Below, piece after piece: positions 1 to 18,081 of a stretch of DNA of 24,511 bases (positions are counted from its first letter, which is position 1; every line of letters starts with the position of its first letter). The notes beneath the pieces were generated by a model that did no database searches, was not told the origin of the DNA, and saw only the letters and a program-made list of their open reading frames with translations. Origin of the DNA: a virus. The position numbers were made by a program, and so were the translations under genes. The stretch covers positions 1-24,511 of IMG/VR virus record IMGVR_UViG_3300035698_004027. One strand, written 5' to 3'.

Positions 1-1289
1 CTGCTATCGCTTGAGAATAATTCTGAAGAACTAGAAGAACTACTTTCACTTGAAACAATACCAGAAACTGAGCTAGAACTAGAAGAACTAGAAGAACTAG
101 AAGAACTAGAAGAACTAGAAGAACTAGAAGAACTAGAAGAACTAGAAGAACTAGAAGAACTAGAAGAACTAGAAGAACTAGATTCACTACTATTAGAACT
201 AAATCCTACTGAACTACTTGAACTACTTGAACTACTTGAACTACTTGAACTACTTGAACTACTTGAGGAACTTGAACTAATATCTTCACCAAATTCTGTA
301 AAATAATAACAATTCAATAAATCATATGAGCTTTCAGAACTACTTGAAGATGATGTGCTAAACGCTATTGAGCTTGAGCTTGAACTTGAATTTGAATCTA
401 TTGAACTTGAACTTGAAGAGCTAACTGCAATTCCACCCCAACTCTCAGGTATCTCTTCATAATTAGTTGCACTTGAACAAAGCTTAAAACAATCGGTACC
501 ACCACCAGCGGGAGCAGGATCTATTTTCCATAACTCAGGAACTGCCGTTGCAACACTATTATTATTATAAAAACAAGCACCATAATAAATAGTAGATGTA
601 CAATTATCAAAAAGAGTAAGTGGAATATTCTCTATATTAGTATCTGTATGAAAACAAGATCTAAAATCTGTTACACCTGTAAGGTCATCAAACAATCCTT
701 CTGGAATAGCTGTTAATCCAGAACAAGATCTGAAGCAAGAACTTAAATTAGTAATAGCAGTTAACCCTTCAAATAGATTAGCGGGTATAGATGTTAAACC
801 AGAAGAATAAAAACCAGATGTTATTTTTGTGCAAGATGTAGCACCCCTAAATGTTCCTTCTGGTATAGTTGTTATATTAGAACAACCTCTAACAAAAAAC
901 TCTAAATCTTCTGCTAATGCAAGCTTACCAGTTTCATTAGGTAAAGATGTCATATTGGAACAGCCATAAAAATCAATCTTTAAGAAACCCGTATCTCCCC
1001 AAGCATCTACCGAATCAACATTTAATTTTGAACCAATATTATTAAAATGTATGGATGGACAATTACCAGCAATTTGTATTTGATAAGTTCCTGCTGTTGC
1101 ATATTCGTGAGAAGCGTCATCATCCCAAGCAGTAATATTAGAATTTGTTCCATCTCCCCAATAAACAACGCAATTAAAAGTTCCCTTATTATAAAAAGGC
1201 ATTGTGAAAGTTTCAGGCGTAGCGGTAGTAGTAATCGTCATTTTAAAACGATCTAATTCTGAACTACTAGAACTACTAGAATCAACCAT
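1..1289 (-). CDS. PKD/leucine-rich-repeat tail-tip or adhesion protein with polyserine tracts (partial, 3' end off window)
   Basis: The frame is open from ATG at 1289 to the left edge (429 codons), so the C-terminus is missing. The start follows AGGGG with 7-base spacing. Residues 4-10 are a Ser run. Residues 36-75 resemble a PKD-like beta-sandwich (YWGDGT, then HEYATAGTYQIQI). Residues 105-250 are BspA-type leucine-rich repeats of the form L-T-x-I-P-x-x-L-F with Cys-containing turns (SIPANLFEGLT, AIPEGLFDDLT). From residue 290 the chain is almost pure serine, broken by short islands including SVGFSS and, at the edge, ELFSSDS. PKD and BspA repeats are common in surface adhesins and phage tail tips. 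Its place at the distal end of the tail operon suggests a receptor-binding or decoration role, with the Ser tracts as a flexible stalk. The role is inferred; the domain calls are from visible motifs. Confidence 0.75.
   Translation of the reverse strand, partial: MVDSSSSSSSELDRFKMTITTTATPETFTMPFYNKGTFNCVVYWGDGTNSNITAWDDDASHEYATAGTYQIQIAGNCPSIHFNNIGSKLNVDSVDAWGDTGFLKIDFYGCSNMTSLPNETGKLALAEDLEFFVRGCSNITTIPEGTFRGATSCTKITSGFYSSGLTSIPANLFEGLTAITNLSSCFRSCSGLTAIPEGLFDDLTGVTDFRSCFHTDTNIENIPLTLFDNCTSTIYYGACFYNNNSVATAVPELWKIDPAPAGGGTDCFKLCSSATNYEEIPESWGGIAVSSSSSSSIDSNSSSSSSSIAFSTSSSSSSESSYDLLNCYYFTEFGEDISSSSSSSSSSSSSSSSSSSSSSSVGFSSNSSESSSSSSSSSSSSSSSSSSSSSSSSSSSSSSSSSSSSSSVSGIVSSESSSSSSSELFSSDS
76..182 (-). 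repeat. 9-bp tandem repeat encoding polyserine, about 12 copies
   Basis: On the plus strand the unit is GAACTAGAA, repeated about twelve times without error. On the coding strand it reads TCT AGT TCT, so each copy adds three serines. The perfect copies suggest recent slippage expansion, so length probably varies between relatives. Confidence 0.93.
211..264 (-). repeat. 9-bp tandem repeat encoding polyserine, six copies, different codon set
   Basis: Six perfect copies of GAACTACTT on the plus strand encode serines with AGT AGT TCA codons. Both the unit and the codons differ from the neighbouring array at 76-182, so this array expanded independently although both encode only serine. Confidence 0.92.
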
Positions 1290-1306
1290 TACTTATCCCC
1301 TTTAAA

Positions 1307-2098
1307 TTAAGCGTCTGTATTCCAGGCCCCATCACCCCAGACAGTAATAAATTTTGTTGCGGTAAGCTGGCGAATCATAAGGCTACTAGGTAATGCATAA
1401 TTTCTTACACTTACCTTTGTCCCAGCAACAGCACTATCATCTATTGTATCTCCAGCAGCACATTGCAAAGTAATCGTATACGCCAACTTAGTACTTATAA
1501 ATCCATAACCTTTACCAATATTCTCAGTAGTAGCTTTTGGTAAGTTAAATATGAAATCACAATCATTATCATGCACAAATGTATTACTTGCCTCACTTAC
1601 CAACACATCTCTAGGAGAATCAACACACTCAACAGCTATTATGTCATTACCAATCATCCACGGAAATGGAGGAAGATTTGTGTATAAAGCCCAGGAAATA
1701 ACAGTTGTCGTGTCAAGTATTGTTGCACCATCTAATGCAGGATTTCTTTTTAAGATAATCATACCATCAGATTGGACTATAGCTTCACTTGCGCCAGTAT
1801 CATATACGATTAATGATAATAGGAATTTACCATTGATAGCAGTTTTTGTAGCATCAAAATCGAAGAAAATAGTATTATCGCCTACAGTTACAACACCTTC
1901 AATCTCTACTATTTCAGATGCCTCTCTGTTTACACAATAAGTAAGTTTTGCTGTATTTTCTGCTGTAAATTCAACTGCAGTACCATCAGAATAAACATAG
2001 ATTTTTACATAAGGAGTACTACCCTCTGTCGTTTCCAAAAGCATACTCTCAGCTTGATGGTTAGTATCTATTGTTAAAGTATTTGTTATTATAGACAT
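1307..2098 (-). CDS. Baseplate/distal tail protein, BppU-N-like beta domain
   Basis: 263 residues starting after GGGAG at good spacing. The N-terminal half (about 30-120) alternates beta strands: VKIYVYSDGTAVEF, then LTYCVNR, IFFDFDA and GKFLLSLIVYD, ending in MIILKRNP. This pattern is typical of the N-terminal domain of upper baseplate proteins such as BppU, where it attaches receptor-binding parts to the tail tip. The C-terminal half (170-263) is also beta-rich, ends in VWGDGAWNTDA, and is not recognised. It lies between the tail fibre and the LRR protein, only 17 bases upstream of the latter, which supports a structural tail-tip role. The family call rests on pattern only. Confidence 0.5.
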   Translation of the reverse strand: MSIITNTLTIDTNHQAESMLLETTEGSTPYVKIYVYSDGTAVEFTAENTAKLTYCVNREASEIVEIEGVVTVGDNTIFFDFDATKTAINGKFLLSLIVYDTGASEAIVQSDGMIILKRNPALDGATILDTTTVISWALYTNLPPFPWMIGNDIIAVECVDSPRDVLVSEASNTFVHDNDCDFIFNLPKATTENIGKGYGFISTKLAYTITLQCAAGDTIDDSAVAGTKVSVRNYALPSSLMIRQLTATKFITVWGDGAWNTDA

Positions 2099-2155
2099 AT
2101 TTTCTCCCTGTTCCTTTAGTTAAGTTTACGAGAAACAAGCAATTTTGCCCAATAA

Positions 2156-2368
2156 TTAACAAGTAATAGTTGCTTCAGTTGCTTTTTCGTGTAAAACTTT
2201 AATCTTATCTCTTAATTTACTGAATATCTGAGCTTCTTTACTATTTAATTTTATGTTTATTTCTCCAACACCATTAAACATAATAGCCCACTCATCAGCT
2301 GTAAAATAATTTGCTACCTTAGTCAACACTTCATTTGCTTCTACTACTTCTACTACTTCTTCACTCAT
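2156..2368 (-). CDS. Small acidic protein of unknown function
   Basis: 70 residues, ATG preceded by GGAGAG at 5-base spacing. The N-terminus is strongly acidic (SEEVVEVVEANEV). The rest looks helical, with FTADEWAIMFNGV followed by an amphipathic stretch ending in LHEKATEATITC. There is no signal peptide or membrane segment. It sits between the fibre gene and the BppU-like gene, so it may be a fibre chaperone or a small structural part, but nothing in the sequence proves this. Confidence 0.6.
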   Translation of the reverse strand: MSEEVVEVVEANEVLTKVANYFTADEWAIMFNGVGEINIKLNSKEAQIFSKLRDKIKVLHEKATEATITC

Positions 2369-2384
2369 TTTATCTCTCCATTTT

Positions 2385-2413
2385 GTTTATCATACGTTTA
2401 TCATACGTTTATC
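2385..2413. repeat. 11-bp direct repeat (2.6 copies) across the fibre gene stop codon
   Basis: GTTTATCATAC occurs at 2385 and 2396, with a third partial copy at 2407. On the coding strand the fibre stop codon (TGA, 2403-2401) lies within the repeat. The extra copies fall downstream of the stop and so do not change the protein. Confidence 0.85.
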
Positions 2414-4545
2414 AATCCATGTGTTCTTAGTTTTGCCAACAAATCGTTTAACTGAGTTGTAACATCGGTAACATCAGTAACAAGCTTATCTATCTCAGTT
2501 CTTGCAACACCATCTGAATCAGCACCACCTGCACCAACAGCCGATGCCGTTACTGCAGCATCTGCAATAGCTACAGCTTGAGCACCCACTACCTGAGTTC
2601 CATTACTCTTAAAAGATGAACCAACTGAGTTAACATATGTAGTTGCTTCAACATAACTGCCTGCCGATACATATGTAGTAGCATCAACATAAGTTCCAGC
2701 ATTAACACTTGTTCCTGCTGTTATACTTGTTCCTGCATCAATTAAAGCAGATGCCCAAATACTTCCAGTTACATCTAGTGAAGCACCAACCCAAGCCCCA
2801 CCAGTAACCTTTAATGCGCCAGTAGAACCAGCTTTTGTTGCAGCAATTGTATTTTCAACAAGGAATTTTTGAAGGGCAGCAACAGTCCAATCACCAGTAT
2901 TACCTTTTAATATTTGTCCAGATAAACTTATTACTTCATTATCAGTAGCACTACCAATTGAACTACCCCAATTATGAAGGTATGTATCATCTGTTCCACC
3001 TGCTTCTCCGCTATCTGCATCTCCGTTCATCCAATATGCGCCATGGTCATTTTTATAATTAATACCAGATGGATTCCCTTCCTTAATATCTGACAAAAGC
3101 CTATGAGTGTTCTTAGGGTCATCTGTTATACAATCCCATACATCATCGCAATCAACAATGTCTAAACAACTTCTTACCCAATCGCAATCTAAGCCTCCAC
3201 TAGTTTCAAGCCAATCACCAATATCATTAGCATCACAATATTTTAATACTCTATCACCAGCACCATCTACATTTCTAAATAATATCATATCAGTTGCAAG
3301 CAAAGGAGTACTTACATCAGTATGAAACTCAATTAACTGTAGATAATTATTACCAGCCTGTACTTCTATTGACCATTGAGCTGTACCATTTGTATTAGAA
3401 TCTATTGTTGACCAGAGTAATTCACCCTGCATCTGACCACCAGCATCTGCAATATCTGAAGAAAAGTAAGGTACAGAATAACTACTTGCTACTGTACTTG
3501 TTGCACCCTTTAAACCAATAACATTAAACGGATTACCAGGGCTTGAATAATTATCAACATTAGCATCTTCCCATATCTCTAATGTTGAGTGGGTGGAAGG
3601 ATTTTGAGGCTTGTAATGCGAATCAATCCCAGCCCAATCTATAAAACCTTCTGGGCCAACCGTAGTCCAATTATCAGTAAAGCTGTCAAAATACGGAATA
3701 CTCTTTGCCTTATAACCCGAACACCTGTCAACATTATATATCTGAAGTTCACCATAATGTTGATTTGTTCCCGTTTCCATAGGGTCTAAAACTGTATTAT
3801 ATTCCAAAGTATATCTTTTATTGGGTTTTGTTAAAATATTTTGATTATCAGCATCTGTAATAAACCCAGAGTCCTTTATATCAATATTTACTCTCTGCTT
3901 TATTTTGCTAATCATCCACCCACTAGCAGTTTCTACATTTTCTTGTAATTGAATGATTCCAATAATTTCTCTCGTTTTAACAAAAATAGTTGAATCGGCT
4001 GCTGGATGAGTACCTACATAATCAGGATTTTTAGCACCAGCTTCTTCAGCATCTGTATTTATATAAAGATTTAATTTCCCTGGAATTATAGCTGCATTAA
4101 ATGACCAACCACCAGTTGCACCAAGATCCTCATCTAATTCTACATAAACATAAATATCAGTATTTTTTTCTATAATTATTGTAGGATCTCCACCCTCTAT
4201 TATTTCATCTAAGGTTATTAATAATTTATCTTCATTGTCTGGGTCAAGATGCCCTAAACCACCATCATATAGTTTAACAGCAATTGTATTTCTTACCCAA
4301 CTACCTATAAAAACAGACAAAGTATTACCATCATATTCTTGCATTCTAAAAGGGAAATCTACAATTATAGTATTCCTAGGTAATGTTGAATTTAATACAC
4401 CATCGTTTGTATGATAATCTACTGAAGAAGGGTCTATATTGGTTTTATCATACTTGTTAGCAACCTCAACTAATTTGTTGTAGTCATCAACTGGTATACT
4501 CCTCTGACCCACCTCAGCTTCATTTACATTTCCTTGGTCTGACAT
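2401..4545 (-). CDS. Tail fibre-like protein with repetitive beta stem and C-terminal coiled coil
   Basis: 714 residues, start after AAGGAG. Residues 1-230 form a mixed beta domain that probably attaches to the tail. A middle region contains a Cys/Trp/Asp-rich segment (YCDANDIGDW, then CDWVRSCLDIVDCDDVWDC) that could bind metal or form disulfides. Near residues 580-660 are degenerate six- to seven-residue repeats rich in Gly, Ala, Thr and Val (AGTSITAGTSVNAGTYVDA and similar), as in beta-helical fibre stems. The last 35 residues form a heptad-like coil (EIDKLVTDVTDVTTQLNDLLAKL), a plausible trimerisation end. The call as a fibre combines these features with position after the tape measure. 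No enzymatic motif is evident. Confidence 0.65.
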   Translation of the reverse strand: MSDQGNVNEAEVGQRSIPVDDYNKLVEVANKYDKTNIDPSSVDYHTNDGVLNSTLPRNTIIVDFPFRMQEYDGNTLSVFIGSWVRNTIAVKLYDGGLGHLDPDNEDKLLITLDEIIEGGDPTIIIEKNTDIYVYVELDEDLGATGGWSFNAAIIPGKLNLYINTDAEEAGAKNPDYVGTHPAADSTIFVKTREIIGIIQLQENVETASGWMISKIKQRVNIDIKDSGFITDADNQNILTKPNKRYTLEYNTVLDPMETGTNQHYGELQIYNVDRCSGYKAKSIPYFDSFTDNWTTVGPEGFIDWAGIDSHYKPQNPSTHSTLEIWEDANVDNYSSPGNPFNVIGLKGATSTVASSYSVPYFSSDIADAGGQMQGELLWSTIDSNTNGTAQWSIEVQAGNNYLQLIEFHTDVSTPLLATDMILFRNVDGAGDRVLKYCDANDIGDWLETSGGLDCDWVRSCLDIVDCDDVWDCITDDPKNTHRLLSDIKEGNPSGINYKNDHGAYWMNGDADSGEAGGTDDTYLHNWGSSIGSATDNEVISLSGQILKGNTGDWTVAALQKFLVENTIAATKAGSTGALKVTGGAWVGASLDVTGSIWASALIDAGTSITAGTSVNAGTYVDATTYVSAGSYVEATTYVNSVGSSFKSNGTQVVGAQAVAIADAAVTASAVGAGGADSDGVARTEIDKLVTDVTDVTTQLNDLLAKLRTHGLINV

Positions 4546-4555
4546 TAAAAACTCC

Positions 4556-5377
4556 TTAAGGTATTATAATAGTTCCAAAATCTGTAGTTAAATAAACAAG
4601 GTCTGTGTCTACATCAGCAACTTGTTTATTGCCAACTAACTGCCAGTCTGGTGACCCAGGTGACTCTGGTTTAGGGTTCCAATAATAGTTCCAAGAATTA
4701 TCAACTTGAACAGCAGGAAGAACATTATTAGGGGAAACATAAAGAATTCTATAAGCAAAATTCATAGTTACTTCCCATTTTCGTTCGCCCTCTGCATCTA
4801 ATACAAGTTTATCATTAGTAGAAACAAATAAAACATTACCCTTTGCAAACGGATAATACCAAAGTTGTACTGGTAGAATGCCATTATTTATTTTGCCCAA
4901 TCTAGGCATTATTTCTGCAATTCTAAAATCAGTATACGCTTGGTCGTCATCTAAAAGTAATGTTTTACTCATAGAACCTCTAACCGTATTCTTGTAAAGC
5001 CTACCGTTATATTTAGTTTTATCTTTCTGCCAATACCAAGATTTAGGTGATTCAATACTAACCATCTCAGAACCACCACTAGATATAAAATTATCAGGGT
5101 CAGTTTTAGGAACATTAGTAGTATCATGTTCAGAACTACTGCTAGATGTCGTATAAGCACAAGTATATTTATATTTACAGTCAATATCTTCAAAATGATA
5201 TTCTACTTCAGTTATACTATCACATATACTATTAGGATACGTTATAGAAAAAGAGTCACCTAGCGCTGGCAAATCATCAGTACCACCAGTATGTTCTATG
5301 AAAACTCTTGTTCCAGTAGTTCCAGCGGTAGTGTTGACCGCCTCATAACCTTCTCTTAACTCTTTATATCCTGCCAT
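4556..5377 (-). CDS. Putative distal tail/baseplate structural protein
   Basis: 273 residues, start after AAGGAG with 5-base spacing, 10 bases downstream of the tape measure and 10 bases upstream of the fibre gene. It is beta-rich and aromatic (SWYWQKDK, PVQLWYYPFAKGN, WNYYWNPKPESP), with no membrane segment. Around residue 77 is a run of five serines (TTSSSSSEHDTT), echoing the Ser-rich tracts of the LRR protein and capsid paralogue. The slot directly after the tape measure usually holds the distal tail or hub protein, and that is my positional guess. I do not recognise a specific family. Confidence 0.45.
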   Translation of the reverse strand: MAGYKELREGYEAVNTTAGTTGTRVFIEHTGGTDDLPALGDSFSITYPNSICDSITEVEYHFEDIDCKYKYTCAYTTSSSSSEHDTTNVPKTDPDNFISSGGSEMVSIESPKSWYWQKDKTKYNGRLYKNTVRGSMSKTLLLDDDQAYTDFRIAEIMPRLGKINNGILPVQLWYYPFAKGNVLFVSTNDKLVLDAEGERKWEVTMNFAYRILYVSPNNVLPAVQVDNSWNYYWNPKPESPGSPDWQLVGNKQVADVDTDLVYLTTDFGTIIIP

Positions 5378-8649: not shown

Positions 8650-8882
8650 TATTTTTCTTCTATTTTAGGTTTAATAACAGCATCCTCTGGAATACTAATT
8701 ACTTTATCGCAACTCTTGCAAGAAAATCCATCAGGAACACCATGCGCACATACACTCATAAAATGCAATGTATCTTTATCAACCATCTTATTCTCAATCT
8801 TAGCCTTCTTCATTTCTAATCTCCTTTTCTTACGAGCTGCTCTAAACTTTTTCTTACTGTTCTTACACCCACTACAAGCCAT
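8649..8882 (-). CDS. Small zinc-ribbon-like basic protein
   Basis: 77 residues. The ATG shares a base with the upstream stop (TAATG) and follows AGGGG. Cys at 3 and 6 is followed by a very basic helix (KNSKKKFRAARKKRRLEMKKAK), and a second cluster reads CAHGVPDGFSCKSC, so four to six possible zinc ligands are present. It may bind DNA or RNA, but no family is certain. The spot, inside the connector block, usually holds only structural genes. A similar C-x-H ... C-x-x-C arrangement occurs in the partial gene at the right edge. Confidence 0.65.
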   Translation of the reverse strand: MACSGCKNSKKKFRAARKKRRLEMKKAKIENKMVDKDTLHFMSVCAHGVPDGFSCKSCDKVISIPEDAVIKPKIEEK

Positions 8883-9166
8883 TATATACCCCTACTGCTT
8901 TTTAGACCAGGTCTAAAAAACGGATGAGCAGCAGTTCTAGATGTTCCAAATTCAACATACTTAGCATATTCCAAATCAGACCCTATTTCATAATACATAG
9001 GCTGAACCTTACTAACATGTATAGACTCTCTTAATCTCCCTGTATCAACTGGACACATTGACTGTATTTTCTTTTTAGTTTTTTCAGCAGATTTCTTCAT
9101 TCTACGGTCTATATACCTAAAAAGCCCAGATGTGTAACTCCTACCAAACCATTTTACTTTATTCAT
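8882..9166 (-). CDS. HK97 gp10-like head-tail connector / neck protein
   Basis: 94 residues, starting two bases after the upstream stop with AGGGG. The sequence has the diagnostic HK97_gp10 features: a basic N-terminal helix (RRMKKSAEKTKKKIQS), the CPVDTGRLRESIHV motif, then YEIGSDLEYAKYVEFGTSRTAAHPFFRPGL. Proteins of this family take part in joining head and tail. Gene order (connector, head closure, gp10-like, completion) is standard. Confidence 0.9.
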   Translation of the reverse strand: MNKVKWFGRSYTSGLFRYIDRRMKKSAEKTKKKIQSMCPVDTGRLRESIHVSKVQPMYYEIGSDLEYAKYVEFGTSRTAAHPFFRPGLKSSRGI

Positions 9167-9167
9167 A

Positions 9168-9488
9168 CTAACCCCTATATGTTACATCAACCTCAATAGT
9201 ACCTTTTTTAGCAGAAGTAGTATTTACAGTATTAACATCAAACACCCTGTTGTCCGTCACAAGCTCGTCAGAACTTTTGATATCCACTTCATCACAATAT
9301 ACACGATGGGTGCTAATCGTCCCATCCTTGCCCCCTAAAGGCTGTTCTGTTGCCTGTAATTGTCTAACTCTCCCAGCTATAGTCATAACAGTAGTTTTAA
9401 CCTGAGTTACACCACCTACAGCATCAATTGTGTTAAGGTTTAACCTCTTAACAACTATTTTAGAATTATAAAGTGATTTCCTACTCAT
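9168..9488 (-). CDS. Head closure / head-tail joining protein
   Basis: 106 residues. Its ATG shares one base with the stop of the connector gene (TAATG at 9488), suggesting coupled translation. The beta-rich pattern includes KIVVKRLNLNTIDAVGGVTQV, MTIAGRVRQLQATEQPLGGKDGTISTHRVYCDEVDI and a final VTYRG, which matches the small 'stopper' proteins of siphophages that plug the connector after packaging. Assignment relies on size, fold pattern and position between the connector and gp10-like genes. Confidence 0.7.
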   Translation of the reverse strand: MSRKSLYNSKIVVKRLNLNTIDAVGGVTQVKTTVMTIAGRVRQLQATEQPLGGKDGTISTHRVYCDEVDIKSSDELVTDNRVFDVNTVNTTSAKKGTIEVDVTYRG

Positions 9489-10378
9489 TAAATACTTATC
9501 CTCGCATACAGGCTAAGGTCCTTCCAATGCCTATCTATAACAGAAGTAATTTTATGACGACTATAACTATAATCACCTATCTTTTCTGACTGTTGATTAC
9601 CATCTTCATTCTTGTAATCCATAATTTCTTTGACAATAGTGTTCACAACAAGAGTCAGCCCTTCAGGTACATTTCCAGCAGTTGTTAATGTTCCACCAGA
9701 ATCATCTGATACGGGAAATTCGTATCCCCCAGTATACCAACAGAATATATCACCATAAAAATAACCATCACATAAACGTTCTATAGTACAATCAGAATCA
9801 TGTGCAATTCTTACATCACCACCCAAATAAGGAGTAGTTAAATGAACTTGCTCATCTACAGCCCAACCAGAATCTAATGGGCGAATCAATTGAGTTAGTG
9901 AATTACCTCTATCAGATAACACTTCAACAGTCCAACCAGCTGTTAAATCCATAGCAGTTACCAAATCAGTTACATTTGTATAAGTAGCATATAAAAATTC
10001 AGTTTCAAGTTCTACCGCATCTGTGCCAATTTCAGTTAAAGTAACTCCTGTAGCATTACTCGTAACAGTAGCTAATGGATTACCAGTATTCTTAATTGTC
10101 AATACATCTACACAATTCCCTGATACCAATTTAATAGCAGTAATAGGATAATTATCAAGTACAATATATTCAGTTCCAGAACCTTCAACCCATTCTTTAT
10201 ATGTAGCAGACTGAAAATTCCTACCACACTTCTTGCCTATTAAATCACAAGTTTCATCTATGATATATCTTAGAACTTCTGTATCACTAATGTTACTGGA
10301 AACATCATCATTAACATCATTTATGAATCTATTATAAAGATATAGATTTGTTAGATTCGATACACCTTTTGCAGCCAT
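9488..10378 (-). CDS. Head-tail connector protein (gp6/gp15-like) with central insertion
   Basis: 296 residues; ATG preceded by AAGGGGG and sharing one base with the stop of the homing endonuclease. The N-terminal helices (TEVLRYIIDETCDLIGKKCGRNF), the strand TEYIVLDNYPITAI and the C-terminal helix (GLTLVVNTIVKEIMDYKN) followed by EKIGDYSYSRHKITS are the pattern of HK97 gp6 / SPP1 gp15 adaptors, which form a ring under the portal. Family members are often 100-200 residues. Here roughly residues 90-170, a beta-rich and Thr-rich stretch, look inserted between strand and helix, possibly an extra domain facing outward. Confidence 0.75.
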   Translation of the reverse strand: MAAKGVSNLTNLYLYNRFINDVNDDVSSNISDTEVLRYIIDETCDLIGKKCGRNFQSATYKEWVEGSGTEYIVLDNYPITAIKLVSGNCVDVLTIKNTGNPLATVTSNATGVTLTEIGTDAVELETEFLYATYTNVTDLVTAMDLTAGWTVEVLSDRGNSLTQLIRPLDSGWAVDEQVHLTTPYLGGDVRIAHDSDCTIERLCDGYFYGDIFCWYTGGYEFPVSDDSGGTLTTAGNVPEGLTLVVNTIVKEIMDYKNEDGNQQSEKIGDYSYSRHKITSVIDRHWKDLSLYARISI

Positions 10379-11109
10379 TACGATACCCCCTTAAGCTTTC
10401 TTTTAGCCCAGTTCTTTTTCATTTGTTCAGACCTCCTTTTGCTTTGCTCTTGAGTATACTTATAGCCTTTAGCATTCTTTTTACCGCACATTGCTATGGA
10501 ATGCTTTTCTTTTTCTTCTTCAGACTGATTACGACCTTTTGTCCATGTGTTCTTACCTTTAGCAGATATACTCATTTTCTTTTTTGTTTCTTCAGTGTGC
10601 TTTCTACCAAGGGGCGATATTTTCTTTTTTGTTTCTTCAGTATGCTTTTTACCCATACGCCCTTTACTAATTTTATCTCTAGTTTCTTGCGATTGCGACT
10701 TCCCCATATTTGATTTACTAATTCTTTTTCTAGTTTCTTTAGAACAAACTCTTCCCATACCTGCTTTGCTAATTTTAATTTTAGTTTCTTCAGAAAGAGT
10801 TTTTCTTGTACCAGACTCCATATTATAGCCGTTATTTATGCTATCATAATATTCCATCCACGTATCTTCTCTATTAAGTAGAACGTCATCTATACACTTT
10901 TCAACAGCTTTAAACTCAAAACTATCAGCACCGTATCTATTCCAAGCCCTTTGCAGGTGTTTATTATGATGCTTGTTCAGCCTAAGTTCAGAGCGATGAC
11001 AGGTGAACCTATTTCTAAAACCAACTGTAGACCCAGTACATCCAATATAAACCTTATTGTTCACAAGGTTAAATATTCCATATATACCAGATTCTGTGCC
11101 TTTAGCCAT
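10378..11109 (-). CDS. GIY-YIG homing endonuclease with NUMOD3-like repeats
   Basis: 243 residues, RBS GGAGGT just before ATG. The catalytic module is at 1-100: GIY at 8-10, YIG at 21-23, Arg32/Arg34 (FRNRF), the metal-binding Glu81 in NREDTWMEYY, and Asn96 in GYN. Residues 105-185 contain about five copies of a 17-residue DNA-binding motif of the NUMOD3 type (S/T-x-E-T-K-x-K-I-S ... G-K), visible in the DNA as repeats of about 51 bases. Such enzymes cut an allele lacking the gene and are copied in by repair. It is free-standing, lying between the capsid paralogue and the connector gene, and overlaps the connector start. Active residues all look intact. Confidence 0.93.
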   Translation of the reverse strand: MAKGTESGIYGIFNLVNNKVYIGCTGSTVGFRNRFTCHRSELRLNKHHNKHLQRAWNRYGADSFEFKAVEKCIDDVLLNREDTWMEYYDSINNGYNMESGTRKTLSEETKIKISKAGMGRVCSKETRKRISKSNMGKSQSQETRDKISKGRMGKKHTEETKKKISPLGRKHTEETKKKMSISAKGKNTWTKGRNQSEEEKEKHSIAMCGKKNAKGYKYTQEQSKRRSEQMKKNWAKRKLKGVS

Positions 11110-11118
11110 GTTACCTCC

Positions 11119-11148
11119 AAAAATAAGGGGGCTAAATTAATAACCCCC
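11119..11148 (-). terminator. Probable intrinsic terminator after the capsid paralogue
   Basis: On the minus strand GGGGG (11148-11144) pairs with CCCCC (11131-11127), extended by three inner pairs including one G-T, with a loop of TTAATT. A TTATTTTT tract follows. It lies 8 bases after the capsid paralogue stop. The tract runs straight into the RBS of the endonuclease gene. Confidence 0.6.
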
Positions 11149-11155
11149 ATTGTAA

Positions 11156-12298
11156 TTACGTACTTGAGCTGTCAGAACTGTCAGAACTAAATTTCTCAGA
11201 ACTACTTGAACTAGACGAAGAAGAACTAGAAGAAGAAGAACTAGATGAACTAGAAGAACTAGAAGAACTAGACGAAGAACTAAATCCTACAGATGAACTA
11301 CTTGAACTCGATGTAGACTCACTAGATTGTTCCATATCTGCCTTCATAACAAATGCTGATACAACAGAACCATCTTGAGTAGTCATTGTAGAATTCCATC
11401 CACTCTTACCATTAATCCTATGTACCCAACGATAACATAATTCATCCTGGAGAAATTTTAACGACTCATTTACATCAGAAGTAATTTCTTTCTCAGCAAT
11501 ACAATACTGGCTCATATCAGCAAGAAGTATATCATCCACATTCATTACATCAGTTATAACAATAGGTAATCCAAGAATTCTACCTAGTGGAGCACCTTCT
11601 GAAGGATTAGGATTAAATACATTCGGAGCAGTAGTTAAGTCAAGATCAATAATCTCTTCATAACCACCTTTACTCATATACCATTTACCATTAGGATTGC
11701 CATAGTAAGAATGATACATATCTTCTAACTCAGCCAATGTAATAGGGTCAGTGTTTGCAACAAATATAGTTGAAGCATCTGCGGCTATACCATTAATAGT
11801 ATTAGAAGGATAATTGCTACCATATATAATAGCTCTATCAATCTGCCACATCATACTCTCAGTTACAGCACCAGAAATATATGTCTGAAGTGCAACAGCA
11901 TCCATAAACAACTCTTCAGTTATATATACGATTCCTACAAGTTTGTTTAAACTAAGGTCAATCTGTGCAAACTGTCCTTTTGAAGGTGTTTTAGTAACTC
12001 CCTCACCAACCCAATACGTTAATACTCCACCCTTGATACCAGATGTGTTACGTGTAGGTTCAGCAGCAATAGATATCTTTAAACCATTAGCATTTTCGCC
12101 AACCTTAAAAATTTTACATTTAGAATATAGTGAACCTTCTGCGAAATTTGGACTGAAGATTTCTGCTGTTACTGGATGGTCAACTAGGTAACCGCCCTCA
12201 ATGTCAGTTTTTTCATTCTGCCCCGTTGACTTAACAATAGCGCCTGTTCTCAATGACTGCAACTTTTTACCCATTTCTTCTAGTTTCTCGATTTTCAT
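11156..12298 (-). CDS. Second HK97-fold capsid protein (paralogue) with C-terminal polyserine tail
   Basis: 380 residues from ATG at 12298, chosen because AAGGAG is six bases upstream; the ATG two codons earlier abuts that site. The core aligns by eye with the major capsid protein encoded just upstream: KSTGQNE, GG-Y/F-LV-x-H, NGLKI, G-E-G-x-TKT, Q-I-D-x-SL-x-K, Y-x-T-x-EL, and the final QDGS/PSGD-x-VS-x-FV. It lacks the roughly 100-residue charged N-terminal region of the other protein, having only 22 residues before KSTGQNE. The last 56 residues are mostly serine, with SVGFSS near the start and EKFSSDSSDSS at the end. It could be a vertex, minor or decorating capsid subunit. The role is inferred. 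Confidence 0.85.
   Translation of the reverse strand: MKIEKLEEMGKKLQSLRTGAIVKSTGQNEKTDIEGGYLVDHPVTAEIFSPNFAEGSLYSKCKIFKVGENANGLKISIAAEPTRNTSGIKGGVLTYWVGEGVTKTPSKGQFAQIDLSLNKLVGIVYITEELFMDAVALQTYISGAVTESMMWQIDRAIIYGSNYPSNTINGIAADASTIFVANTDPITLAELEDMYHSYYGNPNGKWYMSKGGYEEIIDLDLTTAPNVFNPNPSEGAPLGRILGLPIVITDVMNVDDILLADMSQYCIAEKEITSDVNESLKFLQDELCYRWVHRINGKSGWNSTMTTQDGSVVSAFVMKADMEQSSESTSSSSSSSVGFSSSSSSSSSSSSSSSSSSSSSSSSSSSSEKFSSDSSDSSST
11159..11326 (-). repeat. Polyserine-coding low-complexity tract
   Basis: The final 56 codons of the capsid paralogue are almost all TCT, TCA, AGT or TCG serine codons arranged in imperfect 9-base repeats of GAACTAGAA type. The string GAACTAAATCCTAC also occurs in the polyserine region of the LRR gene near 197, suggesting shared origin. 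Confidence 0.85.
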
Positions 12299-12357
12299 TA
12301 CCATCTCCTTAGTTTTTGCCCTTGTTTAAGGCGTGATTAATAATACACTCCAACTAA

Positions 12358-12390
12358 ATTATAACATTTTCACTATAAATACACACAAAA
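12358..12390 (-). promoter_or_regulatory. Promoter-like element upstream of the capsid paralogue (GTGAAAAT box)
   Basis: On the minus strand TATAAT (12363-12358) is a perfect -10 match, preceded by TTATAGTGAAAATGT; TTGTGT 19 bases upstream is a poor -35. The GTGAAAAT box (12373-12366) recurs upstream of the major capsid gene and twice in the terminase gap. It lies about 60 bases before the start codon and downstream of the terminator at 12427. Confidence 0.55.
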
Positions 12391-12426
12391 AGATATTATA
12401 GTTGTTCTAGGGATACTATAAATACT

Positions 12427-12466
12427 AAAAAAAAAGAGCCTGAGTAATTAAACTCAGGCTCTTTTT
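12427..12466 (-). terminator. Strong rho-independent terminator after the major capsid gene
   Basis: A perfect 15-base-pair stem (12431-12445 with 12452-12466, core AGAGCCTGAGT) with a 6-base loop. On the minus strand it is followed by a run of nine T. It lies 25 bases beyond the major capsid stop. A-tracts on both sides mean it could stop transcription from either direction. Confidence 0.93.
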
Positions 12467-12490
12467 ACATCATTGATTTATTAATTATTC

Positions 12491-13750
12491 TCAGTCTCTG
12501 GTAACAAATGGTGACACCAGGTCCCCACTTGGAAGAGTAATTGCACTTGCAATTTTTGGTGACCCGCCTAAGCGTCCAACAAAGCGAAATGCGGTCTCAT
12601 CTTCGAGAAAGGCAATGTGTATACTGGTATCTTTTTTGATTCCACCCTTCTTGATAACAAGATACTGGCTAAGGTCAAGGAACATGATGGATGTATCATC
12701 AGCTGCGGCCCCTGCTTGCTCTATAACGTTAATTGGACGACCAAAAAGTGTTCCATAGGCGGAAACTTCATAACTAGGCTGTACCAATTTAACACCACTT
12801 GTAGACTCAAGCTGACCAATTGCTACGAATTGAGCCAAACTCATGTACCACTCAGCACGATTAATAGACTGAGGAGCCATTGAAGCATACATACCCATCA
12901 ACTCAGCAGCAGTTGGATTGTCACCAGCAACTGTGTACTGAATAGTAGCTGCATGATTTTCAATCTCTATCATATCTGTGTTAGTTGTGCCATGAAGAAT
13001 GTCATCATCCGCTACCCATGCAAAAGCCGCCGAAACGTCCTTAGTGAGCATACTTTCAAGTGCAACCTTATCCTGAAGCAATTCATCCGTACAATAGACA
13101 ACCGCCGCCATCTTACCAAGAGAAATGTCAATCTGTGAGAAAGCCTGTGAGAAAGCAGTCTTAGTTGAACCTTCACCTGGACTATAAACACGAACACCAC
13201 CAAACAATGTAGTAGCAGAACGAGTAGACTCATTAACCTGATTGATTTTCAAACCATTAGAGTTAGGTCCTATTTCAACTTGGTCGCACTTAGGAAGTAA
13301 GATTGACTGCTGAGCAGCTAAACGATAGATTTCATTACTAAGGTTATGCTGGACCAAAAAACCGCCATCGGCCCCAGTAGTTTCATTCTGGCCCGTCGAT
13401 TTATACAATCTTTCATCAACATTTCCACGAGAAGCCTTTACAACAGCACCAAGGAACTCGCCAGAATCTTTCCAAAGAGGAGCATCTTCAACAACTACAA
13501 CAGCAGTTTTTGTTTCAACTTCTTTTTCAGTTTCTTTCATAGCTTCAGTAACTGCAGACTTAATTTCTTTAGCCATATCAGCTTTAATATCTTCAGCCTT
13601 AACTTCCTTTACAACACCATCACTAGCTTCTGCTCTTTCAGCCTTGATAAGCTCTTCAGCAACATCATCAGACACTTCAAGAATAGAACCAGAATCATAG
13701 ACGTTATCATCAACATCCATATATTTCTTAATCAACTTTATAAACTTCAT
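12491..13750 (-). CDS. Major capsid protein, HK97 fold, with N-terminal scaffolding-like region
   Basis: 419 residues with AAAGGAG before ATG. Residues 1-90 are charged and helical (SDDVAEELIKAERAEA, KADMAKEIKSAVTEAMKETEKEVETK), matching the HK97 delta domain that acts as scaffold and is removed by the prohead protease encoded just upstream. From about 118 the HK97 family pattern begins: KSTGQNETTGADGGFLVQ, NSNGLKINQ, GGVRVYSPGEGSTKT, QIDISLGKMAAVVYCTDELL, a middle domain, and the closing FLEDETAFRFVGRLGG with PSGDLVSPFVTRD. The gene has its own 150-base leader and a strong terminator, as expected for the most abundant virion protein. Confidence 0.93.
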   Translation of the reverse strand: MKFIKLIKKYMDVDDNVYDSGSILEVSDDVAEELIKAERAEASDGVVKEVKAEDIKADMAKEIKSAVTEAMKETEKEVETKTAVVVVEDAPLWKDSGEFLGAVVKASRGNVDERLYKSTGQNETTGADGGFLVQHNLSNEIYRLAAQQSILLPKCDQVEIGPNSNGLKINQVNESTRSATTLFGGVRVYSPGEGSTKTAFSQAFSQIDISLGKMAAVVYCTDELLQDKVALESMLTKDVSAAFAWVADDDILHGTTNTDMIEIENHAATIQYTVAGDNPTAAELMGMYASMAPQSINRAEWYMSLAQFVAIGQLESTSGVKLVQPSYEVSAYGTLFGRPINVIEQAGAAADDTSIMFLDLSQYLVIKKGGIKKDTSIHIAFLEDETAFRFVGRLGGSPKIASAITLPSGDLVSPFVTRD

Positions 13751-13869
13751 AATATTCTCCTTTAATAGAATTTAATTTCAATACTTACTTACCCAGACTA
13801 CTATTTCTTTTGGATACACCTGCCGATAAAAGGCTACAGCTTCCAGTTAGATAGTTACATCTACACTTA

Positions 13870-13899
13870 ATATTATCATTTTCACAATAAAACAAACAA
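13870..13899 (-). promoter_or_regulatory. Promoter-like element upstream of the major capsid gene (GTGAAAAT box)
   Basis: On the minus strand TTGTTT (13899-13894), a 16-base spacer and GATAAT (13877-13872) resemble a weak sigma70 promoter. The spacer contains GTGAAAAT (13885-13878), flanked as in the capsid paralogue promoter. About 120 bases of leader follow before the capsid ATG. The leader contains two short paired segments (GGA/TCC and GCC/GGC) at about 13810-13845, too weak to call a riboregulator. Confidence 0.5.
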
Positions 13900-13903
13900 A
13901 TAA

Positions 13904-14917
13904 TTAAACTATTCGACCTAATTTCTTTCTAATTTCATCTTTTATCTCCTGTTTCATTGCCTTTTTATCAATTACAACTTGAGGTTTAGCAATCAATTTA
14001 ACACAATAAGGCTCTTTAACTAACGTAACTTTAGTAACTTTCTTTACTGCTGGAACAACTTCCTCTTCAGTTTCAGACTCAATTACCTCTTCTTCATCAA
14101 ACTTATGTAATTCAATATTTTCATCAATATCAGCTTCAACAGTTTTTCTCTCTTCAAGTTGCTCAACACCCTCTTTCCAATCTTTTCCCCATATATCCTT
14201 TTCTTCTTTCTCCTCAACATGGAAACCTAACTGTTTAAGTAATGTTTCGTCAGCACCAGCCTCAGTATACATTTTACTAACTGCAAGAACCTCTGTATCA
14301 GTATTGCAAGCCAAAGATACATCAGAAAACTCAAAGAGTATACATTTAGATATGATTCTACGTAAGCTTTTCTTTGTTTTCTTCAATTCAGGATATTCTT
14401 TAACCAATACCTTTACAGCAGCATCAAAATTAGGCTCACCAATTCGAATTACTTCAGTAGGGATAATACCAACTGATGACTGATTGTTCATTCCCTGTGC
14501 CGTCAACTTCCATAATACATCAGCTAACGTACCTTCTCCAGTATCAGCATAACGAACAGTAGCCTTTACACCCCATTCATCACAACTAATTTTCTCAGCC
14601 TTAGCAACTTGAGGTTTACTATAGTCATGATTGTGGAATACAGGACTTCCAGTTTTCTTGAATAACTGAAGATTCACTCCTTTTGGAAGTAGAAGATCTC
14701 CACTTTGGTCAACTGAACGTGTGGAGATATATTTTACTGCTGTTCTACTACCCTCTTCCAATTTAGCCTTCTGCTCTATATCAGACTCAACAGGTTTACG
14801 ATATACCTCACAAGCATCAAAATCTATACCAGATGCAACTAGTTCTTCCTTTAGCACATCTACCAAACCATTATCTAACTTATTTGCTATCTTATTTAAC
14901 TGTACTGTTTTCTTCAT
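13904..14917 (-). CDS. Prohead maturation protease (S78-like) with charged C-terminal extension
   Basis: 337 residues, start after GAGGAG, three bases beyond the portal stop. The protease domain is at about 60-210: ISTRSVDQSGDLLLPKG, then His95/His97 in FHNHDYS, Ser147/Ser148 in NNQSSVGIIP, and FEFSDVSLACN as the closing strand with Glu196. This His/Ser arrangement fits HK97 gp4-type serine proteases, which cut the capsid N-terminal region inside the prohead. Beyond 230 the chain is acidic then basic (EEKEEKDIWGKDWKEG, EEEVIESETEEEVV, final KKAMKQEIKDEIRKKLG), a possible extra scaffolding section. Position between portal and capsid is standard. Confidence 0.82.
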   Translation of the reverse strand: MKKTVQLNKIANKLDNGLVDVLKEELVASGIDFDACEVYRKPVESDIEQKAKLEEGSRTAVKYISTRSVDQSGDLLLPKGVNLQLFKKTGSPVFHNHDYSKPQVAKAEKISCDEWGVKATVRYADTGEGTLADVLWKLTAQGMNNQSSVGIIPTEVIRIGEPNFDAAVKVLVKEYPELKKTKKSLRRIISKCILFEFSDVSLACNTDTEVLAVSKMYTEAGADETLLKQLGFHVEEKEEKDIWGKDWKEGVEQLEERKTVEADIDENIELHKFDEEEVIESETEEEVVPAVKKVTKVTLVKEPYCVKLIAKPQVVIDKKAMKQEIKDEIRKKLGRIV

Positions 14918-14919
14918 TA

Positions 14920-16350
14920 TTATTGCTCCTCATTCTGTTCAGGTTCTTCCTGCCCAGCTATATATCCAACTTCTTTACCACCATTAACTCTAGGAATGTC
15001 ATATTCAGAACCTAAAGCAGTCATACCCAATTTCAATCTAGCCTCATTAACTGTTACAATCCCAGCGTTTACATATCCAACATTCTCTTCCAATAATATC
15101 TTCCTATCCTGAGGTATTGGAGAATCATATGCCAAGAATAACCTTCCACTAGGATCATACATCTTAACTAATGTTTCATTCAACTTCTCAGCTATACGAG
15201 TAATTCTTGGTAATATTGTTGTTTTGGCATATACACGCTCAGCTATCTCACTAGTTGCTTTCTTAGTATCAGAACTATCCAAAAGCGAATAAGGTACACC
15301 AAATGCAGCAGCTATCTCTTTTAGACTCCATACACGACCATTTAAGTATTCCATGTCCTTAGGCTTGAATCCCAATGTTTCCAATGAGAAATCTTCATCC
15401 ATTACTTTAATACGACCATCTTTATTAGGTCCACTAAATGCATTCCTCCACATTCTCTCAGTTTTCTTTATCTCACTAGAATCAAGCTTTCCACCCTTAT
15501 AATTAACTACAAAATCAGGACGACCCATATTAGCTAACCTAGAATTCTCAGAAGCATCCATTGCCCTCATTCTATTAATAGCACCAATTACAGACTGAGC
15601 CGCTCCCATGCCATAGTACATTGATTCTGGATTAGGTGTTTTAAAATGAATAATCTCATCTTTATTAAACTTAATTAACTCATTAGATGCATTCTTCTGA
15701 CCATATACATAACCTTTAATAAAATTACGCTTTGCAGGAATGATTTTCATATATTGCCCCTGAAGTACCCATATCTCTTCAGGAACGCCTAATGAATCCT
15801 TACGTACCCACCAGTATCCATCCCCAATCATATCCAAATACATCGAGGTAAGCTCAAATGACTCATAGTTGTTATTATAAGCATTCATGTTCTGCAATAA
15901 ATCAATTAATGGATGGTCAACAACCTCTACTACATTATCAGCTCTCTTTAAACGAGCTAATGACTTATTCTCTTTCAATTCCTCAAACTTTAACTTACTT
16001 ACTTCCTTAGTTTGACGTAAAAACTTATTATTAGCACCATTCTCAACAGTAGCATATAAATGTAAATCTTGTGATGCAACAGAACTAGCATTCAACGTAG
16101 CACAACTAAATATCCAAGATTGTAAATGCTTTATAACATTTAATGGACTAATCGCCGTATTCGTAGTCGGACAAGATAAATTAAAAAATGAATCCCTTCC
16201 AATAGACTGAGAAGTACTTGTAGCCCCAACTATATCTTTCATCTTCGTTTCCTTAACAGTATCATACCTTTCCTTCTGATATGCTTTAAGTTTCTCTTTG
16301 TTATCTTGATAATACTTCTTTCTATACGCTTTTTCTTTTTTACTGCTCAT
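14920..16350 (-). CDS. Portal protein (HK97 type) with basic N-terminal extension
   Basis: 476 residues. AAGGAG seven bases before the ATG supports the full-length start. The body from about residue 60 is a typical HK97-family portal: VIKHLQSWIFSCATLNASSVA, the YLDMIGDGYWWVRKD region, DEIIHFKTPNPESMYYGMGAAQ, ENSRLANMGRPDFVVNY, LEIAAAFGVPYSLL-like 'SLKEIAAAFGVPYSLLD', and VNEARLKLGMTAL near the end. It forms the dodecameric DNA gate. Residues 1-40 (KKEKAYRKKYYQDNKEKLKA and onward) are very basic and resemble the repeats next to HNH nuclease domains rather than anything usual in portals. Confidence 0.92.
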   Translation of the reverse strand: MSSKKEKAYRKKYYQDNKEKLKAYQKERYDTVKETKMKDIVGATSTSQSIGRDSFFNLSCPTTNTAISPLNVIKHLQSWIFSCATLNASSVASQDLHLYATVENGANNKFLRQTKEVSKLKFEELKENKSLARLKRADNVVEVVDHPLIDLLQNMNAYNNNYESFELTSMYLDMIGDGYWWVRKDSLGVPEEIWVLQGQYMKIIPAKRNFIKGYVYGQKNASNELIKFNKDEIIHFKTPNPESMYYGMGAAQSVIGAINRMRAMDASENSRLANMGRPDFVVNYKGGKLDSSEIKKTERMWRNAFSGPNKDGRIKVMDEDFSLETLGFKPKDMEYLNGRVWSLKEIAAAFGVPYSLLDSSDTKKATSEIAERVYAKTTILPRITRIAEKLNETLVKMYDPSGRLFLAYDSPIPQDRKILLEENVGYVNAGIVTVNEARLKLGMTALGSEYDIPRVNGGKEVGYIAGQEEPEQNEEQ

Positions 16351-16362
16351 AATATCTCCTTA

Positions 16363-18081
16363 TTAAAAATCATCCCCATTCATCCAGTCATCCTCTAAAG
16401 ATTGATATGCTTCTAATCTCTTCTGCTCTTTCTGCTCTTCAGTTTCTTTAACTTCGCTAGGATAATTGTCACCAGTAGAAGGATGTATGAATATAGATGT
16501 TAATTCATTAAATGCACCAGACCAACCATCAACCTGGTCATCATGTTTTGTAGACGCATCACCAAACATATGCAATTCGCTTAAAAAAGGGTCATTCCAT
16601 TCAGCTAATTGTAACTTAACATTACCAATCTCAGCCTGTACAGCACTAGGTCTAGCTCGTATCTCTTTATTCTTACCACCTGTAGGAACTCCCTTGCAAT
16701 TGAAGCCAGCTAGTAATGTTTGTAGGCGATATGAGTCACTTTTACCTGACGCCCCACCTTCTTGTTCCCATCGTACCATAAACTCAATCCCTAAATCATC
16801 TGCACTTATCTTATCCATTTGACACGTCTGTAAGAATAACTTCTCTAACTCAGCTGGATTCTCTCTTACCCTCACTACATCAATGATAAAATATTTACCA
16901 TTATATTTACGCACTTTTATTCCAACAGTCCAATCTGGGTCTTTATTCTTTGCACTAGGTTTCGTACAAGCAAAATCCCAAAACCTACATTCCTTACCCT
17001 TTTGTGGTATTTCTTTAGGGTCTACTATCTCAAACCATGAACGACGGTAGAAAAGGCCCGCCGTTGCCATAATGTTCCAGTTGCCATCCAAAAGTCTAGC
17101 TCTTTCCAGTGGTACCATTGCTTCTAAGTTAGATAAATAACTTGTGTCAATTTCCAATAATTTTTGATTATCTGTTAGTTGAGCACTTATAAATGTAACA
17201 GATTTAATTCCTGCTATAGCTAATTTCTTATGCTTATATATTTTTGCTGTAAATTCTACCTTTAATGCCTCTAGTTTCTTTAATCTGCCCTTACTTGTTA
17301 ATTTTTTCTTTTTATTGAGGTATTCTTGGCGTAAGTTGTTATAAGTAAGTGCAAAAGCTTCATTCTTCTTTAATACCTCATTTTTAGTACTACCCCATAT
17401 AAATTTTCCCTCTACCCTCAACATATATCTTATTACACCAGATCTCTCTTTAATAGCTAATCCAGTATCAGGATTTATCCACCAATCAAGGAAATCACGT
17501 AACCAACTGTCAGCTTTAGGGTTACAGGTGCCCCTTATATAGGGTTTTATGCCACATACCGATCTATTTCTGGAAAGCATATAAAAAACCTGTGTTTCTG
17601 TAAATTTCTGTATTTCATCAAAGAAAATAGCGCATGCCTGCAACCCATCAAATCCAGACTTATCTTTTTCACCCTCCATATAACCAAACTTAATTTCTGC
17701 TCCACTCTCAAATTTCCATTTAAGCCTAGATTCAACAGGCCTACAATTTAAATTACCATACATTTTAACAGATTCATCCCATAGAGCACCAGGCATTCTT
17801 ATCTGTTGACTAGTATTACGAAACATAATACAGTTATAACCGCCATTTTCTGTATGCATTAGTGGTTCTGCGAGTATTGACCACGATTTCCCACTTCCAG
17901 CTGCTCCCCCATATATACATATATCTGCATTAGTTTTAAGGAATTCTGTTTGTGGCCCTTCTTGTGGCGCTATTATAAGAGTTTCTTCTTTAGGTTCTTC
18001 TGGTTCTTTAGATTCTTTAGGTTCTTTAGGTTCTTCTGGCTCAGTAATTGGCTTAGTTTCTTCATCCATCATCATCTCCAT
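16363..18081 (-). CDS. terL: Terminase large subunit
   Basis: 572 residues, ATG preceded by GGAG at 5-base spacing. This is the packaging motor: an ATPase that pumps DNA and a nuclease that cuts it. Walker A is GGAAGSGKS (58-66). Walker B is AIFFDE (151-156), ending in the catalytic Glu. The RNase H-like nuclease has Asp369 (FWDFA), Asp401 (FIIDVV) and HDDQVD (513-518). KSVTFISAQLTDN and LLDGNW are typical TerL motifs. The first 33 residues are repetitive Glu/Pro/Lys. Residues about 240-290 are a Lys-rich helical stretch that looks longer than usual. The TAGCCA array lies between it and the small subunit gene. Confidence 0.96.
   Translation of the reverse strand: MEMMMDEETKPITEPEEPKEPKESKEPEEPKEETLIIAPQEGPQTEFLKTNADICIYGGAAGSGKSWSILAEPLMHTENGGYNCIMFRNTSQQIRMPGALWDESVKMYGNLNCRPVESRLKWKFESGAEIKFGYMEGEKDKSGFDGLQACAIFFDEIQKFTETQVFYMLSRNRSVCGIKPYIRGTCNPKADSWLRDFLDWWINPDTGLAIKERSGVIRYMLRVEGKFIWGSTKNEVLKKNEAFALTYNNLRQEYLNKKKKLTSKGRLKKLEALKVEFTAKIYKHKKLAIAGIKSVTFISAQLTDNQKLLEIDTSYLSNLEAMVPLERARLLDGNWNIMATAGLFYRRSWFEIVDPKEIPQKGKECRFWDFACTKPSAKNKDPDWTVGIKVRKYNGKYFIIDVVRVRENPAELEKLFLQTCQMDKISADDLGIEFMVRWEQEGGASGKSDSYRLQTLLAGFNCKGVPTGGKNKEIRARPSAVQAEIGNVKLQLAEWNDPFLSELHMFGDASTKHDDQVDGWSGAFNELTSIFIHPSTGDNYPSEVKETEEQKEQKRLEAYQSLEDDWMNGDDF

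Follow-up and report, generated by a model that had tools for sequence, protein, structure and literature searches.

Tandem HK97-fold capsid paralogues in a viral head gene cluster, the second a candidate minor shell subunit with a Ser-rich tail

The window analysed here, that is, the whole stretch of DNA, is a single 24.5-kb viral record (24,511 nucleotides, IMGVR_UViG_3300035698_004027). Its minus strand carries an HK97-type head gene cluster comprising the following genes.

16363..18081, minus strand: large terminase (phrog_979, E 1e-137)
14920..16350, minus strand: portal protein (PF04860, E 8.2e-51)
13904..14917, minus strand: head maturation protease (phrog_80, E 5.5e-5)
12491..13750, minus strand: MCP-A (hereafter A), major capsid protein of 419 aa (PF05065, E 1.4e-35; TIGR01554 model positions 15-381)
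11156..12304, minus strand: MCP-B (hereafter B), second HK97-fold protein, 382 aa (PF05065, E 5.5e-31; TIGR01554 model positions 90-374; AF2, Foldseek)
10378-11109, minus strand: GIY-YIG endonuclease with NUMOD3 motifs
9488..10378, minus strand: head-tail adaptor (phrog_442, E 1.3e-4)
9168-9488, minus strand: head-completion-like protein
8882-9166, minus strand: HK97-gp10-like protein

Transcription on this strand reads A before B, and the GIY-YIG endonuclease gene lies between B and the adaptor gene. In those close relatives whose contigs reach the adaptor gene, the latter follows B directly with no GIY-YIG endonuclease in between, and the endonuclease gene of the window therefore looks like a recent insertion. 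One relative, L003, has an additional 138-aa frame (4298-4714) in the gap between the portal and protease genes, which has no counterpart in the window.

The original prediction had described A and B as two tandem HK97-fold capsid paralogues that share four core motifs and differ at their ends, only A having a delta-like region and only B a 56-residue Ser-rich tail, and each of these points was borne out. Both ORFs were present, and BLASTP aligned their products with 37% identity over 309 aa (113/309 identical, E 1e-51). Besides matching PF05065 (Phage_capsid), both proteins matched phrog_10 (major head protein, PHROGs) and TIGR01554 (major_cap_HK97, NCBIfam; E 2.4e-47 for A and 1.4e-33 for B), and as they lie far above the family cut-offs of PF05065 and TIGR01554 both belong to the HK97-fold major capsid family. 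The motifs KSTGQNE, NGLKI, G-E-G-x-TKT and Q-I-D-x-SL-x-K were all found in A as well as in B, and three core deletions were seen in B relative to A. The difference at the N-terminus was evident from TIGR01554, which aligned from model position 15 in A versus position 90 in B. The parts of the two proteins were delimited as follows.

13409..13750, minus strand: delta-like region of A, residues 1-114, from alignments to B and to HK97 gp5; absent from B
11327..12229, minus strand: HK97-fold core of B, about residues 26-326 (AF2 and Foldseek)
11159..11326, minus strand: Ser-rich C-terminal tail of B, residues 327-382, mostly Ser, predicted disordered

Judged from the genes, A has an N-terminal scaffold region with the protease gene adjoining, and this region is absent from B; the head maturation protease (13904..14917) is the likely cutter of the delta region of A. 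When aligned to HK97 gp5, whose mature chain begins at residue 104, the shared KSTGQNE motif lies approximately at the mature start, so that B would begin at about the point where cleaved A is expected to begin, plus some 25 residues. The putative N-terminal pro-region measures about 25 residues in B versus about 115 in A. As the ribosome-binding site of B abuts the listed ATG, the true start of B is probably the ATG at 12298, giving a protein of 380 aa.

The fold of B was assigned from an AF2 model together with Foldseek, and that of A from sequence only. In the AF2 model, which was built from a 30-sequence alignment, most 10-residue blocks between about residues 50 and 320 showed a pLDDT of 65-92, the weakest part of the core being 271-290, and the tail remained below 50, corresponding to predicted disorder. 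Foldseek retrieved the capsids of Mycofy1, R4C, a GTA, Muddy and HK97 with a probability of 1.00 and E values of 5.7e-15 to 1.1e-11. Structure prediction had been proposed as a check for a broken core; run on B, it predicted an intact HK97 fold, and the original reading withstood this check.

IMG/VR scans revealed the A and B pair at the same place in 12 further viral contigs (L003, L004, L005, L007, L008, L010, L012, L013, L018, L030, L031 and L054), all relatives being metagenomic fragments. B directly followed A and was devoid of a delta region in all 13 contigs carrying both genes. Searches of isolate phages for B returned distant single capsids only and no pair, nor was any pair found in the scanned species-genome contigs with pattern-based scans, which can miss distant members; a relative from a Planctomycetota MAG, L058, has only a single capsid gene. 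In a tree of 38 rows, one clade (100/99) united 12 B proteins and a second (100/98) united 14 A proteins; the single-capsid phages fell outside both, and the rooting branch was weak (86/68). Judged by these separate clades, the duplication that gave rise to A and B is old. The A protein of L054 grouped with the B protein of the same contig (99/95; AU tests marginal, p 0.047 and 0.058), and this pair may represent a second duplication.

Nonsynonymous change in B was well below synonymous change, the latter being near saturation. In every pair that includes the window, B diverged more rapidly than A (dN ratio 1.3-2.2), as would be expected if B were a decaying or non-virion duplicate, but this explanation is the least credible of those considered here, as no broken copy was present among the 13 B genes, the predicted fold is intact, the constraint is strong and the tail is conserved. 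The window A grouped with that of L005 and the window B with that of L003, and constraining the trees to the opposite groupings was strongly rejected in the case of B (p 3e-5), the rejection for A being marginal (p 0.049). Judged by these discordant groupings and rejected topologies, recombination has probably passed B genes from phage to phage, which hints at a tolerant interface between A and B.

Within the window, Ser accounts for 43 of the last 53 residues of B. A Ser-rich tail was present in 12 of the 13 B proteins, the window included, the exception being that of L031; the existence of this tail-less B indicates that a role in the shell can do without display. Imperfect tandem DNA repeats exist in the tail, and the Ser codons are a mixture of TCN and AGY in the window and in every relative, which rules out a pure trinucleotide-slippage artefact and argues that the tail is kept at the protein level. 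In eight of the 13 B proteins (L005, L007, L008, L010, L012, L018, L030 and L054), an unnamed module of ∼90 aa with conserved Cys, Trp, Tyr and Gly residues is located in or after the tail. Comparison of the module with Pfam and the PDB and by Foldseek gave no usable match, its structure model being of low confidence.

The same Ser tail and module were also found in L056, where they follow a different N-terminal domain in a 282-aa protein (3413-4261) encoded between the portal and coat genes of a phage whose coat is P22-type (PF11651). By its occurrence on this head-cluster protein, the tail with its module is a portable appendage that moves between proteins of the virion cluster. In the contig of L008, L057 positions 1-3990 form an open frame, at least 1,329 residues long and rich in Ser, in which small globular insertions recur; one of these matches the module of B weakly.

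A decorating part of the shell was among the options listed in the original prediction; B would then be an outer decoration which binds the finished A shell, and no shell subunit itself. We know of no HK97-fold protein that acts as an add-on decoration, and B has kept the whole HK97 core together with the capsid-family signature. Although the L056 protein carries the tail and module without any capsid homology, and Hoc demonstrates that such appendages do occur as decorations (PMC10385173), we regard this explanation as very improbable.

The intergenic regions around A and B contained several candidate expression signals.

12431..12466, minus strand: 15-bp terminator hairpin between A and B, followed by a T-run (folding z-score -6.5)
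12358..12377, minus strand: promoter-like element upstream of B, TATAGTGAAAATGTTATAAT (consensus match only)
13870..13889, minus strand: matching promoter-like element upstream of A, TATTGTGAAAATGATAATAT (pattern written from both sites)
11127..11148, minus strand: terminator-like hairpin after B
13796..13887, minus strand: conserved structured leader upstream of A (RNAalifold, with compensatory pairs)
12318..12332, minus strand: short hairpin just 5' of the ribosome-binding site of B (weak individually)

The gap between A and B in the window is thus arranged as the 15-bp hairpin, the T-run and then the promoter-like element. A hairpin was detected in all 13 A-B gaps, each scoring above 60 of 60 shuffles, and was followed by a terminator-like T-run in only about eight of the 13; in HK97 itself, a putative terminator is annotated just after the capsid gene. 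As a hairpin or terminator separates B from A, B is probably made in smaller amounts, and the arrangement fits an output of B below that of A, with the promoter-like site of the window as an element that could restore the level of B. Covariance model R1 found the A leader upstream of A in the held-out L016, L035, L019 and L020; the modelled stretch includes the promoter-like sequence, and an Rfam scan of the window and three relatives gave no match. The hairpin preceding the ribosome-binding site of B has an A-rich loop and a stem whose sequence varies among the relatives, with modest support from its position and from shuffles, and RNAalifold run on an automatic alignment of the B leader returned no structure.

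Taken as a whole, these data lead us to favour, with a probability of roughly 0.6, B as a low-copy or minor shell subunit, located likeliest at the vertices and with a flexible arm displayed on the outside of the head. We infer the low copy number, the vertex position, the outward tail and the binding role of B from the comparisons described, which themselves show the paralogy, the intact predicted fold, the absence of a delta region from B, the conservation of gene order, tail and module, and the hairpin. From the options of the original prediction, namely a pentamer subunit, a surface-displayed minor subunit or a decorating part, a displaying shell subunit is thereby preferred on account of the intact predicted fold, the old and conserved paralogy and the recurrence of tail and module with an unrelated capsid type, and an external decoration layer becomes the less likely. 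In the proposed scheme, B would have arisen as a dedicated minor shell subunit when the major capsid gene was duplicated long ago, while head assembly would be driven by A through its delta scaffold, together with the phage protease. The protease would remove the delta region of A, and B, scaffold-less and probably scarcer, would join the A-built shell, most likely at the pentameric vertices. The disordered Ser-rich C-terminus of B would then project from the head, as suggested by the analogy with C-terminally extended minor capsid proteins such as that of K1F, and in many relatives would tether a small globular module, a possible binder of cells, glycans or particles. As neither Pfam nor the PDB yielded a match to the module, this binding role is a guess.

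The vertices are favoured because B, like T4 gp24 and SaPIbov5 Ccm, is the protomer with the shorter pro-region; in these two systems, the natural two-protomer phage-type shells that were checked, it is the second protomer which fills the pentamers, and a pentamer location of B is compatible with both. B-specific fixed changes were only modestly concentrated in the A domain, so that pentamers are not singled out by sequence, and this enrichment was rejected as too weak to prove pentamer use. The main rival to the vertex reading is random mixing, in which B would enter hexamers and pentamers alike in small numbers purely as a tail carrier, a gene-duplication counterpart of T7/K1F 10B. There are precedents on both counts, as Family 2B two-component encapsulins tile two HK97-fold shell proteins from one operon randomly (PMC12407261) and K1F gene 10b specifies a C-terminally extended minor capsid protein that has been used for display (PMC13370021), and the recombination of A and B between phages would also agree with it. 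However, the encapsulin pair is far more similar than A and B, whose cores, only 37% identical and set apart by the three deletions in B, have diverged further than random co-assembly needs, and the tail-less B of L031 is left unexplained by pure display. We therefore consider random mixing unlikely, albeit the strongest of the competing explanations.

A control of head size or shape by B through favouring pentamers, with the tail being secondary, would follow the example of SaPIbov5 Ccm; this homologue of the capsid protein, whose delta domain is shorter (87 vs 128), occupies only the pentamers of a shell mixed with the phi12 CP and alters head geometry (PMC8569155). Such a role appears improbable here, as the B gene belongs to the phage itself and lies in the head operon in all relatives identified, there is no helper that could be hijacked, and the conserved Ser tail and module are not predicted by it.

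With B placed as a vertex-biased minor shell subunit, a wider picture can be drawn, though tentatively and with more doubt than belief: in a group of uncultured tailed phages, heads of two protomers, with paralogue vertices bearing tens of Ser-rich arms, many of them carrying an exchangeable binding module, would have arisen at least twice (L054) and would have this module in common with a phage of the P22-type coat. HK97 shells built of two protomers are rare: T4 is named as the other known example in a 2025 paper (PMC12407261), and Ccm is a satellite case (PMC8569155). A clade of phages in which a second protomer is conserved would offer many natural tests of how a single fold is divided among capsid positions, would illustrate head-borne adhesive parts obtained with neither a frameshift nor a separate decoration protein, and suggests a genetically encoded way of equipping a capsid with a fixed number of displayed domains.

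Among the known systems, T4 Hoc and other head fibres are variable capsid-borne surface modules on an extended arm (PMC10385173); Hoc binds the finished shell through a domain of its own, whereas the arm of B sits on a full HK97 shell core and not on a non-shell capsid-binding domain. Family 2B encapsulins likewise combine two HK97-fold shell proteins from one operon but are randomly tiled bacterial compartments with neither phage head genes nor a Ser tail. T7/K1F gp10A/10B resembles the present pair in having a minor capsid version with a C-terminal extension, yet 10B is a frameshift product of one gene, while B is a separate, diverged ORF with its own start and ribosome-binding site and an upstream terminator. 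In SaPIbov5, Ccm joins an HK97-fold partner as the second such protein and has the shorter N-terminal pro-region of the two, but it is a satellite protein that retains a delta domain, has no reported display tail and changes the head shape. The T4 gp23/gp24 pair, which probably arose from a gene duplication and in which gp24 occupies 11 vertices and has a propeptide of 10 residues versus 65 in gp23 (PMC9958956), likewise combines paralogues of the HK97 fold within a single phage, gp24 having by far the shorter N-terminal propeptide, and B is just such a major capsid paralogue with a shorter pro-region. It differs in that gp24 lacks a Ser-rich display tail and the T4 scaffold is separate, and the identity between A and B suggests, in a tree that holds no T4 sequence, a duplication separate from the gp24 lineage.
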